Assembly (NCBI GenBank): GCA_001778695.1
Contig: MFHU01000005.1
Span: 1-41,673, forward strand
Length of the DNA: 41,673 nucleotides
Direction of reading: 5' to 3'
DNA from: Candidatus Giovannonibacteria bacterium RIFCSPHIGHO2_12_FULL_44_22
GTDB lineage: Bacteria > Patescibacteriota > Minisyncoccia > UBA11713 > 2-01-FULL-45-33
The notes under the pieces are model-generated. The model made no database searches. It was not told the DNA's origin and saw only the letters and a program-made list of their open reading frames with translations. The stretch's first letter is position 1. Every line of letters starts with the position of its first letter. Position numbers and translations under genes: made by a program. Of this stretch, positions 12,316 to 38,133 are shown in pieces.

Positions 12316-12327
12316 TAGTAAATAATG

Positions 12328-12458
12328 CCAGGTAGTGAAATTTCGCATCACGGCGAAGCCGTTAAGTAGCTACTTTGGCAATGCTCTCAAACGTGATATT
12401 GTTTGCTAAAAATAAATATAGTTTAAATTATAAAATAATGCGAAATTCTACTACCTGG
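12328..12458. mobile_element. MITE-like inverted-repeat element A at the secG start codon
   Basis: TIRs CCAGGTAGTGAAATTTCGCAT / ATGCGAAATTCTACTACCTGG (19/21), flanked by direct repeat AATG (12324-12327, 12459-12462). Confidence 0.7.
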
Positions 12459-12459
12459 A

Positions 12460-12678
12460 ATGCGTAATTTACTCCTGTGGATACAGATTGCGGTTTCCGT
12501 GCTATTGGTTACGGCTATTTTGCTTCAGCAAAAAGGCGCGGGCCTGGGCGCTGCTTTCGGCGGCTCCGGCCAGATTTACCGCTCAAAAAGGGGCGTGGAA
12601 AAAAGCTTATTTATCGGCACTATTATTCTCACGATTTTATTCGTTGCAATAGCTTTATTCAACCTCATTATTAAATAA
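12460..12678 (+). CDS. secG: Preprotein translocase subunit SecG
   Basis: LLQQKGAGLGAAFGGSGQIYRSKRGVEKSLF. Confidence 0.93.
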   Translation: MRNLLLWIQIAVSVLLVTAILLQQKGAGLGAAFGGSGQIYRSKRGVEKSLFIGTIILTILFVAIALFNLIIK

Positions 12679-15034: not shown

Positions 15035-15081
15035 TAAAATTATTATCAGCTAATATTATTAAAATTAAATAAAAAAATATG

Positions 15082-15218
15082 TCAGATAGTAGAATTTTGC
15101 ATCATCCCGCCTTGTGGGATAAATCTAATACCTGGCCATATACAAATAATTTATATATATTAAAAGTCGATAAGTTTAATAAAATTATTATTAATTAATG
15201 CAAAATTTCACTACCTGA
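15082..15218. mobile_element. MITE-like inverted-repeat element B at the rnj start codon
   Basis: TIRs TCAGATAGTAGAATTTTGCAT / ATGCAAAATTTCACTACCTGA (18/21), flanked by direct repeat TATG (15078-15081, 15219-15222). Confidence 0.7.
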
Positions 15219-15219
15219 T

Positions 15220-17040
15220 ATGCCGCCAAGACAAGAACATCATCAAAGAACTAGAATTAGAACTCTGCACGGCGCAGGGACGGTTACGCGCCGCACCTCC
15301 GCTTCGGAGCGCAAATTTCGCAAAGAAGGGTCGCTTACAGGCCACGAAGCGCACGGCCACGCCAAGGCCTTGAAGCACGACACGGTTTACTATGTTCCCT
15401 TGGGAGGATTGGAAGAAGTCGGCCGCAACTGCTCGTTTTTTGAATACAACGATGAAATTGTAATCATTGACATGGGCATACAATTCCCCGAAGAAGAAAC
15501 TCCAGGCGTGGATTGGATTATCCCTAACACGAGTTATCTTGAGAAAAAAAAGAAAAATATCAGAGGACTTTTGATAACCCACGGGCACTATGACCACTTC
15601 GGCGCGATTCCCTACGTTTTGGAACGGCTCGGTAATCCGACCATCTATGGCACGCGACTGATCAGAGAAATAATTCAAAAACGTTTAAGCGAAACGCCCA
15701 ACGTTCCGAAGATGCACTTCATAGAAATTAAAAATCACGACACCGTAAAACTTTCCGAACATTTTACCGCGGAATTTTTCGGTGTAAGCCATACCGTGCC
15801 CGACACCACTGGCGTCGCGCTCCACACGCCCGCCGGTGTCATGGTGCACTTTGCCGATTTCCGGCTTGATTACGACCAAGAAGACACAGTCCAAAACCTC
15901 CAGGAGTTTGAACGGCTCTCCAAGCTCGGCATCCATTCGCTGTTTTTGGACAGCACCAACGCGGACTTTGAAGGCCATTCGGTGTCGGAAAAATTGGTTG
16001 AAGCCAATCTTGAAAAAACATTTTTAGCTGCCGAGGGCCGCATCATTCTCTCCACCTTTGCCTCAATGATCACCCGCATGGCGGAAATCGTAAAAATTGC
16101 CGAAAAAATCGGACGCAAAGTCGTCATCAACGGCAGGAGCATGAAGGATAATTTGGAGATAGCGAAACAACTCGGGTATATCAAATACAAGCCGGACACG
16201 CTCGTGCGAATTGAGGAGCTCCACAAGCACAAAGACAACAAAATTCTTATTCTTTCCACCGGCGCTCAAGGCCAGAAAAGCGCCGGCCTGATGCGTATCG
16301 CGAACGGCGAACATAAGCAAATCCATATTAAGCCCGGCGACACGCTTATTTTTTCGTCCTCGGTTATTCCCGGCAATGAACGCGGCGTGCAAACGCTCAA
16401 AGATAATTTCGCGCGCCAGGGCGCAGTCGTTATCACCAATAATGACTTAGACATTCATTCATCGGGCCACGCCCCGGGCGATGACCTGACAATGATCGCG
16501 AAAATTTGCAAGCCAAAATTTATTATTCCGATTCACGGCTTCTATTTCAAACGCGCGGCCAATATTCAGAATATGAAAAAAATAGGAATCGGCAAAGAAC
16601 GCGTCATCTTGATGGACAACGGCCAGGTGGCCGAGTTAAGCCGAGACAACATAGTGGTCACCGACAAAACCGTTGATGCTTTTTATGTTTTGGTGGACGG
16701 CTTGGGCGTGGGAGACGTAAAAGAAGTCGTGTTGCGGGACCGCCAAATGCTTTCTCAAGATGGAATATTTGTAATGATCGCGGCAGTGGACGCTCAAACA
16801 GGAAAAGTCAAAGGTTCGCCGGATATTATCTCGCGAGGATTTATTTATTTAAAAGAATCTCATGAGCTTCTCGCGCAATCGCGGCATCTGGTGCGAAGAG
16901 TGATAGAAGAATCCACCACCAAAATGCACCCAATTAATTGGACACATGTTCGCGACAACGTCCGCGAAAAACTCGGCTCATTCCTTTTCCAAAAGACAAA
17001 AAGAAGGCCTATGGTACTGCCTGTAATTATTGAAGTGTAA
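15220..17040 (+). CDS. rnj: Ribonuclease J
   Basis: LLITHGHYDHFGAIPYVL metallo-beta-lactamase motif; beta-CASP; SSGHAPGDDLTMIAKICKPKFIIPIHG. Confidence 0.97.
   Translation: MPPRQEHHQRTRIRTLHGAGTVTRRTSASERKFRKEGSLTGHEAHGHAKALKHDTVYYVPLGGLEEVGRNCSFFEYNDEIVIIDMGIQFPEEETPGVDWIIPNTSYLEKKKKNIRGLLITHGHYDHFGAIPYVLERLGNPTIYGTRLIREIIQKRLSETPNVPKMHFIEIKNHDTVKLSEHFTAEFFGVSHTVPDTTGVALHTPAGVMVHFADFRLDYDQEDTVQNLQEFERLSKLGIHSLFLDSTNADFEGHSVSEKLVEANLEKTFLAAEGRIILSTFASMITRMAEIVKIAEKIGRKVVINGRSMKDNLEIAKQLGYIKYKPDTLVRIEELHKHKDNKILILSTGAQGQKSAGLMRIANGEHKQIHIKPGDTLIFSSSVIPGNERGVQTLKDNFARQGAVVITNNDLDIHSSGHAPGDDLTMIAKICKPKFIIPIHGFYFKRAANIQNMKKIGIGKERVILMDNGQVAELSRDNIVVTDKTVDAFYVLVDGLGVGDVKEVVLRDRQMLSQDGIFVMIAAVDAQTGKVKGSPDIISRGFIYLKESHELLAQSRHLVRRVIEESTTKMHPINWTHVRDNVREKLGSFLFQKTKRRPMVLPVIIEV
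17011..17040 (+). repeat. Left copy of the rnj 3'-end direct repeat (att-like)
   Basis: ATGGTACTGCCTGTAATTATTGAAGTGTAA; matches 18610..18639 at 29/30. Confidence 0.9.
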
Positions 17041-17967: not shown

Positions 17968-18065
17968 CCAAGCGCCGCCCGATGGTCTTGCCTGCGATAA
18001 TCGAAGTTTAACCGAATTTATTCTGTTCCTTGCTGATTTAAAACCGATGCGGTATCCTTATTATA

Positions 18066-18609: not shown

Positions 18610-18639
18610 ATGGTACTGCCTGTAATTATTGATGTGTAA
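18610..18639 (+). repeat. Right copy of the rnj 3'-end direct repeat (att-like)
   Basis: ATGGTACTGCCTGTAATTATTGATGTGTAA, one mismatch to 17011..17040. Confidence 0.9.
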
Positions 18640-20934: not shown

Positions 20935-20973
20935 AACTACAAATTAATCAGCGATAGCATATTAATTTGCACT
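20935..20973. repeat. Left 39-bp direct repeat flanking the wHTH-Cas2-fold gene 1
   Basis: AACTACAAATTAATCAGCGATAGCATATTAATTTGCACT; internal IR CAAATTAAT/ATTAATTTG. Confidence 0.92.
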
Positions 20974-21002: not shown

Positions 21003-21563
21003 ATGAGAAAGGAGGGTTCAATTGGGCCTACCGCGCAAAAAGTGCTGTTATTATTATTGAGGGGCTTGGCGTTATATCTAACCTATTCACCGAAAAAGCA
21101 ATTCCGCATCATAAAGCAGATAGGAGCGGAATGGAAAAACATAGACAGGCGAGCGCTATATTATGCCATAAAAAGTCTTTATCAAAACCAGCTCATTGAC
21201 GAGCGGGAAAACGCCAACGGCACCGTAACTCTTCGATTAACCCAAAACGGAAAGGCCAAAGCGCTTACATATAATCTTGATGACATAAAAATCCCGGTTA
21301 TGAAACGATGGGATAAAAAGTGGCGTATAATACTTTTTGACATCCCGGAGAAACACAAGAAAGCCCGCGACGCTCTAGCTCGCGTATTAAAGAATATCGG
21401 TTGCCGCCAGTTTCAAAAAAGCGTATTTGTTCATCCCTTTGAATGTAGAAATGAAATCGATTTTGTGATAGAATCATTTTCTATGCGGCCGTATGTGCGT
21501 TTTATCGTTGCGGATAGTATTGATAATGAATTGCATCTCAAGAAATATTTTGATCTATTATAA
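21003..21563 (+). CDS. wHTH + Cas2-like-fold protein (PaaX-like), copy 1
   Basis: N-terminal wHTH (IDRRALYYAIKSLYQNQLIDERENANGTVTLRLTQNGKAKAL); C-terminal WRIILFDIPEKHKKARDALARVLKNIGCRQFQKSVFVHPFEC. Confidence 0.82.
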   Translation: MRKEGSIGPTAQKVLLLLLRGLALYLTYSPKKQFRIIKQIGAEWKNIDRRALYYAIKSLYQNQLIDERENANGTVTLRLTQNGKAKALTYNLDDIKIPVMKRWDKKWRIILFDIPEKHKKARDALARVLKNIGCRQFQKSVFVHPFECRNEIDFVIESFSMRPYVRFIVADSIDNELHLKKYFDLL

Positions 21564-21574
21564 ACTAATCCTTA

Positions 21575-21613
21575 AACTACAAATTAATCAGCGATAGCGT
21601 ATTAATTTGCACT
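21575..21613. repeat. Right 39-bp direct repeat flanking the wHTH-Cas2-fold gene 1
   Basis: 38/39 identical to 20935..20973. Confidence 0.92.
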
Positions 21614-37473: not shown

Positions 37474-38133
37474 TCAAATGTCCCAAACCTGGTTTGGGTC
37501 AAAGTCAAAGCTGGGCCGCGTTTCTTCAACAAATTCTCTATATTCTTTTTTGCCCCTGAATTGAGATAGCACAACCTCACTTTGAAGCAAGTCGCCCCAA
37601 CGATTACTGCCGAGATAATCTTGATAGCTAGACCAAAGATATTTATGTTCCCTTTTATTCCAGCCCTTTATATCTTGCGGATTTAAATGAACATAGGATG
37701 ACGCGCGCAATAAATAATCATTATCATCCAGTAATTTTGAATGAAATTTGCTCTCAAAAACGTGGCCGCGCCGCTCGTATTTAAGGTTATAATATTTTGA
37801 GAAACTTACCATGACGCGATGCATATAACGCGAGATGTTACTATCTTTTAACTCCCCCAAAACTAAATGGAAATGTGTCGGCATTAAGCAGAAACAAACA
37901 ATAGAAACTAACGGCTTACCCAATTTTATTTTCCCATTCCTAATGTCCCAAACAAGGTTTAGGTCATTATTGCGATCGAAGCGAGGCATTTCAACTCCTC
38001 CGTTGGCAGCGAAAAGAACGTTTAAAAAGCGTTGATATGTATCTTTAGCGCGAAAAAGCGCCATGTCTCCGACTGAATGAGCGTAAATATGATAAAAATT
38101 GCCGGTAACGAATGGGTGCCTTCTACTAGCCAT
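37474..38133 (-). CDS. REP-associated tyrosine transposase (RAYT, Y1_Tnp family)
   Basis: FYHIYAHSVGDMALF; LMPTHFHLVL (HUH-type); RYMHRVMVSFSKYYNLKYERRGHVFESKFHSKLL. Confidence 0.9.
   Translation of the reverse strand: MASRRHPFVTGNFYHIYAHSVGDMALFRAKDTYQRFLNVLFAANGGVEMPRFDRNNDLNLVWDIRNGKIKLGKPLVSIVCFCLMPTHFHLVLGELKDSNISRYMHRVMVSFSKYYNLKYERRGHVFESKFHSKLLDDNDYLLRASSYVHLNPQDIKGWNKREHKYLWSSYQDYLGSNRWGDLLQSEVVLSQFRGKKEYREFVEETRPSFDFDPNQVWDI
37480..37500. repeat. REP-like palindrome at the 3' end of the RAYT
   Basis: GTCCCAAACC-T-GGTTTGGGTC. Confidence 0.85.
37945..37965. repeat. REP-like palindrome inside the RAYT CDS
   Basis: GTCCCAAACAAGGTTTAGGTC. Confidence 0.8.

Follow-up and report, generated by a model that had tools for sequence, protein, structure and literature searches.

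Why does the ribonuclease J gene (rnj; 15220..17040, + strand, assigned from its ORF and Pfam RNase_J domains) begin on the second of two identical TATG words that enclose an inverted-repeat segment? We examined this locus in a 41,673-nt stretch of a Candidatus Giovannonibacteria genome, hereafter the window. Inspection of the sequence placed the segment, element B, at 15082-15218 (137 bp). The TATG on its left (15078..15081, + strand) represents the original context of the rnj start codon, while the TATG on its right (15219..15222, + strand) contains the start codon in use (ATG at 15220); both assignments were taken from the sequence and from the empty site of relatives. The terminal inverted repeats (TIRs), located in the sequence and by a TIR-consensus scan, comprise a left arm of AG type (15082..15102, + strand; TCAGATAGTAGAATTTTGCAT) and a right arm of GA type (15198..15218, - strand). 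The two arms match at 18 out of 21 positions, and the mismatches include the GA/AG dinucleotide that is a hallmark of the family. On the gene-distal side lies a subterminal hairpin, ATCCC-GCCTTGT-GGGAT (15104..15120, + strand; assigned from the sequence and a polarity census), and further inside a TACCTGG motif (15129..15135, + strand), recognized by eye and complementary to the outer TIR consensus CCAGGTA; its aligned position was kept in many copies of another genome, G107, again as judged by eye. At the other end of the gene, the 3' end of rnj (MVLPVIIEV-stop; 17011-17040) is repeated downstream at 17982-18011 and 18610-18639, and these extra copies are possibly remnants of a duplication.

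The window holds one more member of the family: element A (131 bp; 12328..12458, + strand), assigned from its sequence and TIR matches. It lies between two AATG words (12324..12327 and 12459..12462, both + strand), identified from the sequence and by comparison with relatives, and the right one contains the start codon of secG (Pfam). A scan of the window with the TIR consensus, allowing up to 3 mismatches, returned only the four ends of elements A and B, and the same scan found no match in 100 shuffles of the window. The GA/AG marks of element B are on the opposite arms relative to element A, element B being among the minority of copies with swapped marks, and the hairpin is gene-distal in both. 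An Rfam search of the two elements gave no family match, only the neighbouring tRNA being significant.

Relatives provided the corresponding empty sites. At rnj, four genomes (G001, G002, G003 and G007) clearly have a closely similar leader in which TATG occurs once (...AAATTAAATAAAAAAATATGCC), and the leader of a fifth, G005, was similar to this empty site, if less clear. Of 10 relatives examined for secG, 8 had an empty start (the best example being G001, ...TAATAAATAATGCGTAATTTACTCC), G003 carried the same insertion as element A, and in G002 the start codon was occupied by a different element with other ends. Given these empty sites, elements A and B are insertions. The sequence-only reading had described the 18/21 TIRs, the TATG/TATG flanks and the position of the rnj start codon as given here, and had placed both elements in one inverted-repeat family with 4-bp duplications; on all these points it held.

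The different element on the secG start of G002 (L277) occupies the same start that carries element A here. It belongs to a second inverted-repeat family (ends CCCGTTAGA, ~105-139 bp) that was found at many other loci in G107 and G202 (e.g. L179, L182, L192), with apparent 6-bp duplications that are roughly palindromic (RTNNAY by eye).

We identified 7 full copies of the family of elements A and B in the source genome, ranging from 67 to 137 bp. All 7 adjoin a start codon and 6 have an exact 4-bp duplication, the remaining one being flanked by TATA/TATG. Pfam supports the identity of six host genes: rnj, secG, ndk, an R3H-domain gene, the gene of an H+-pyrophosphatase and that of a class I tRNA synthetase, which we read as ileS; the seventh is uncharacterised. 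In G107, pgk, mraZ and the genes for an IMP dehydrogenase and a family 28 glycosyltransferase are also among the hosts. The TIR sequence was present in 39 out of 392 sampled genomes of the class, and a reversed-pattern control gave no match; two distant genomes, G107 and G202, were rich in copies. In an exact-pattern scan beyond Patescibacteria, paired ends were found only in Patescibacteria or unnamed bacterial bins, with only unpaired matches in other named phyla, and the viral contigs scanned contained no convergent end pairs. Gene calling was ORF-based and ATG-only, and the genomes are mostly draft assemblies. Two peculiar forms were also recorded. A minimal 29-bp copy (L236, 7865-7893) is barely more than two end halves and still has TATG/TATG flanks, while nested composites recurred in G202, where ~71-bp elements with AAAA/AAAA flanks lie in the left end of larger copies (L151, L154, L159 and L172).

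A census of 691 kb of G107 recovered 60 elements, 44 of which have ATG on both sides: 37 out of the 44 are at starts called with a simple ORF caller, and the other 7 at short or uncalled ORFs. Outside the elements, TATG occurs at 335 starts, 766 intergenic sites and 4266 coding sites. Starts thus make up 30% of the non-coding TATG sites, far below the share observed (P=2e-13), and against all TATG sites the enrichment was stronger still (P=7e-38). Across all loci, 75 out of 92 mid-size copies were at starts, while small copies (60-85 bp) were mostly at non-start sites, several of them nested in the ends of other copies. An exact 4-bp repeat flanked 29 out of 51 non-start copies and comprised many different sequences, so that the duplication is real and not merely a repeated ATG; some copies lacked an exact 4-bp repeat. 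The targeted starts of G107 were AT-rich, had T before the ATG in 84% of cases (49% otherwise) and showed no Shine-Dalgarno motif (0/38 versus 14%). They were also enriched for TANNNT, a -10-like box, ending 6 nt upstream of the ATG (P=3e-4). This composition suggests leaderless or open-complex sites, although it is only a correlation.

The sequence-only reading had left the choice between a target preference for start codons and selection on such insertions, and the enrichment that either would produce was strong. Part of it could be due to selection. Whether selection alone suffices, with random insertion and survival at starts but no targeting, is a possibility that we keep as a minority option, and one compatible with our main explanation. 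Compact genomes purge coding insertions, and some copies do occur at non-start sites. However, the excess at starts persists when only non-coding TATG sites are considered, the 44 ATG-flanked copies fall on ~700 start positions compared with 13 copies in more than 100 kb of other intergenic DNA, and the targeted starts are devoid of Shine-Dalgarno motifs and enriched in the -10-like box.

The autonomous relative with matching TIRs that the sequence-only reading had proposed to seek has a likely counterpart. Copies of ~305-322 bp with the same ends contained one ORF each, of ~85-95 codons, which encodes a single-domain GIY-YIG nuclease. Its Pfam match (PF01541, E=6e-18) and conserved catalytic-type residues fulfil the criteria for the GIY-YIG family, UPF0213 proteins and SLX1 are the closest to it among solved structures, and pairwise dN/dS values of 0.09-0.12 indicate purifying selection. 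In a class-wide search with a profile of eight nuclease sequences, the best-scoring group (above 134 bits) comprised 26 proteins from 25 genomes. Inverted ends that share the GA/AG mark enclose the genes of 23 out of these 26, and at 13 of the bracketed loci TATG is found left and right. The ends differ in sequence (CCAGGTAGT, CCCCGTAG, CCCGGTAGT, CCAGGAAGT), and a few of them were read by eye. The remaining 3 comprise a broken copy in G174 and two genes, one in G000 and one in G008, that lack such ends. Elsewhere in the phylum, outside the class, 7 out of 8 nuclease loci were bracketed. At the same start codon of the ileS-type gene, matching ends enclose a 305-bp nuclease copy in G003 and a 67-bp copy in G000. 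Finally, 13 genomes shared the TIR type and the top nuclease group where 2.5 were expected (P=3e-8), though this co-occurrence is not fully independent, as the nuclease elements themselves carry the TIR. The idea that the host start codon always drives the nuclease found no support: the left ATG was in frame with 7 out of ~15 nuclease ORFs, near chance. The unbracketed genes (L249, G000:C4:53139-53390, and L248 in G008) are of the same subfamily and lie upstream of the same uncharacterised gene; a 31-bp palindrome, CCGGGTAGTGAAGCGCAGCTCTACTACCCGG, was found near L249 in G000.

Elements A and B have TIRs and target duplications with empty sites, and neither contains a transposase gene while a full-length relative shares their ends; these are three of the criteria for MITEs. 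We conclude that both derive by internal deletion from a minimal GIY-YIG mobile element and are of MITE type. In particular, element B is probably a non-autonomous, MITE-like member of a minimal mobile family of Patescibacteria whose full-length form carries the GIY-YIG nuclease. The broader proposition, which we favour with some reserve, is a new class of DNA transposon of ~305 bp, with a single-domain GIY-YIG nuclease as its sole enzyme and the start codon as its target, where the duplication restores the host start; it would possibly be among the smallest autonomous DNA transposons known. The mobility of the family, its 4-bp duplication, its bias for start codons and its association with the nuclease were established by the comparisons above, while catalysis of the movement by the nuclease, the geometry of the cut and the manner of finding start codons are inferred.

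On this proposal, a full-length member would consist of two ~20-bp TIRs (outer CCRGGTAGT or a variant such as CCCCGTAG) around one nuclease gene. The nuclease, or a complex including it, would recognise the inverted ends either as duplex or as an extruded hairpin. Element and target would then be cut with a 4-nt stagger, and insertion would duplicate 4 bp; the joining step is unexplained, because we know of no GIY-YIG enzyme that performs strand transfer. Start codons, usually in an AT-rich TATG context without a Shine-Dalgarno motif, would be the strongly preferred targets, and the duplication would regenerate the host ATG, allowing essential genes to survive. The ileS-type gene of G000 keeps its ORF with the left ATG gone (TATA), so the left ATG is probably dispensable, and the host gene seems to survive through the ATG restored by the duplication. 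Copies without the nuclease gene may be moved in trans, for which co-occurrence is the only support.

An ordinary transposase encoded elsewhere might instead move the TIR-bounded DNA, with the GIY-YIG gene merely carried along or, like TnpB in IS605, acting as a homing-type accessory. We regard this as unlikely without setting it aside: TIRs with 4-bp duplications are typical of DDE transposases, clean 4-bp repeats were found at non-start targets too, and the lack of a known DNA-joining activity in GIY-YIG enzymes points the same way. Against it, neither 691 kb of G107 nor ~30 nuclease loci showed any ORF other than GIY-YIG between these ends, and the nuclease, under purifying selection, occupies nearly the whole element. 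Moreover, Y1 transposase had no match in G107, G016, G072, G134, G169 and G327; a transposase acting in trans was thus excluded for the Y1 family only, and only in some genomes. Known IS families (DDE, HUH, serine or tyrosine) were rejected as assignments, given that GIY-YIG was the only ORF found between the ends.

The architecture of the copies bears on a different explanation. In 45 copies of G107 the two ends pair into a hairpin with compensatory changes and a constant tandem GA/AG mismatch, and pairing of the subterminal hairpin is preserved in almost all of them, G-C often being exchanged for C-G or the reverse. The sequence-only reading had pointed to a conserved hairpin after the left TIR: it was gene-distal in 65 out of the 68 copies with a clear side, whichever arm has GA. 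A role of the GA/AG marks as an orientation signal was rejected, since the interior polarity tracks the gene regardless. The TIR arms covary between copies, for which either selection on structure or arm-to-arm correction can account, and our data do not separate them. A long covarying hairpin with an AUG at each side of its base, an internal hairpin with compensatory changes, a fixed polarity and the prevalence of mid-size copies at starts would also be expected if the elements were not mobile DNA but 5' leader RNAs whose structure is under selection, acting as translation switches or bypass elements, the paired ATGs serving as take-off and landing codons. We consider this improbable in view of the empty sites in close relatives, the many unrelated host genes and the non-start copies with other 4-bp repeats. 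The loss of the left ATG at the ileS-type gene of G000 also speaks against it, and the distance between the end of the left-ATG ORF and the right ATG varies, fusion of the two being rare. This lost ATG and the variable spacing disfavour an obligatory translational bypass in particular, in the absence of expression data.

That the elements are REPINs moved by a RAYT Y1 transposase can hardly be maintained: a GTAG motif, paired inverted ends, small dispersed copies and a Y1 gene in the genome of the window would fit, but the 4-bp duplications occur at many different sequences, to our knowledge Y1 enzymes do not make such duplications, and the richest genome, G107, has no Y1 match. Membership in RAYT/REPIN or IS200/IS605 was rejected accordingly, with Y1 absent in several carriers and 4-bp duplications present. 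The Y1 (RAYT-like) gene of the window lies at 37474-38133 (- strand; PF01797 just under the cut-off), with palindromic repeats (AATGTCCCAAACC...GGTTTGGGTCA) at 37477, 37942 and 38143, and is a possible REP/RAYT locus. Elsewhere in the window, a 39-bp direct repeat (20935-20973 and 21575-21613, 97% identical) flanks the ORF at 21003-21563.

We compared the family with known systems. MITEs and IS elements (Correia/NEMIS, RUP, ERIC) are likewise short, have TIRs and target duplications, and are mobilised in trans by a full-length element that shares their ends; here, in contrast, the full-length form measures only ~305 bp and its gene product is a GIY-YIG nuclease instead of a known transposase, and the targets are precise start codons with a 4-bp NATG duplication. 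RAYT/REPIN systems share a solo mobiliser-type gene at a common location (as in G000 and G008) and dispersed hairpin elements, but their enzyme is a Y1 HUH enzyme and not GIY-YIG, our elements make 4-bp target duplications, and several carriers lack a Y1 match. Free-standing GIY-YIG homing endonucleases (phage T4 Seg/Mob) are stand-alone small genes beside host genes, whereas the present family is TIR-bounded, with 4-bp duplications, many unrelated sites and nuclease-free derivatives; a homing endonuclease with one conserved allelic site was rejected on account of the many unrelated genes and the non-genic sites. Penelope-like retroelements, which are eukaryotic, use a GIY-YIG nuclease for insertion but encode a reverse transcriptase; this assignment was also rejected, as our elements are too short to hold more than the nuclease. 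Translational bypass elements (T4 gene 60; mitochondrial byps) also have a hairpin between two matching codons, unlike the ileS-type gene that lost its left ATG and the non-start copies, which are not so arranged.

Copies without direct repeats, a lack of enrichment at starts or a lack of empty sites could each have overturned the original interpretation; all were examined and none refuted the family. The nuclease, the spread across the phylum and the other 4-bp targets of some, mostly small, copies go beyond it. We know of no DNA transposon whose movement relies solely on a GIY-YIG nuclease, and we found none in the open-access literature. A prior description of the family was not found there either, and one elsewhere is not excluded; as far as we could find, this family of tiny, start-codon-inserting mobile DNA in the ultra-small Patescibacteria was previously undescribed.

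The rRNA genes of CPR bacteria contain GIY-YIG-encoding insertions that are neither group I nor group II introns and seem to lie outside a homing context, as well as short, ORF-less, unexplained insertions (PMC11270868). They share with our elements the Patescibacteria and the GIY-YIG domain, but are located in rRNA genes, and their ends and duplications were not described; they may belong to the same family, which is untested. If the proposed mechanism is true, it would represent a new enzyme class for DNA transposition in a very compact mobility module, a way to enter essential genes without killing them, and a candidate explanation for those rRNA-gene insertions. The annotation of start sites and 5' leaders is affected across Patescibacteria.
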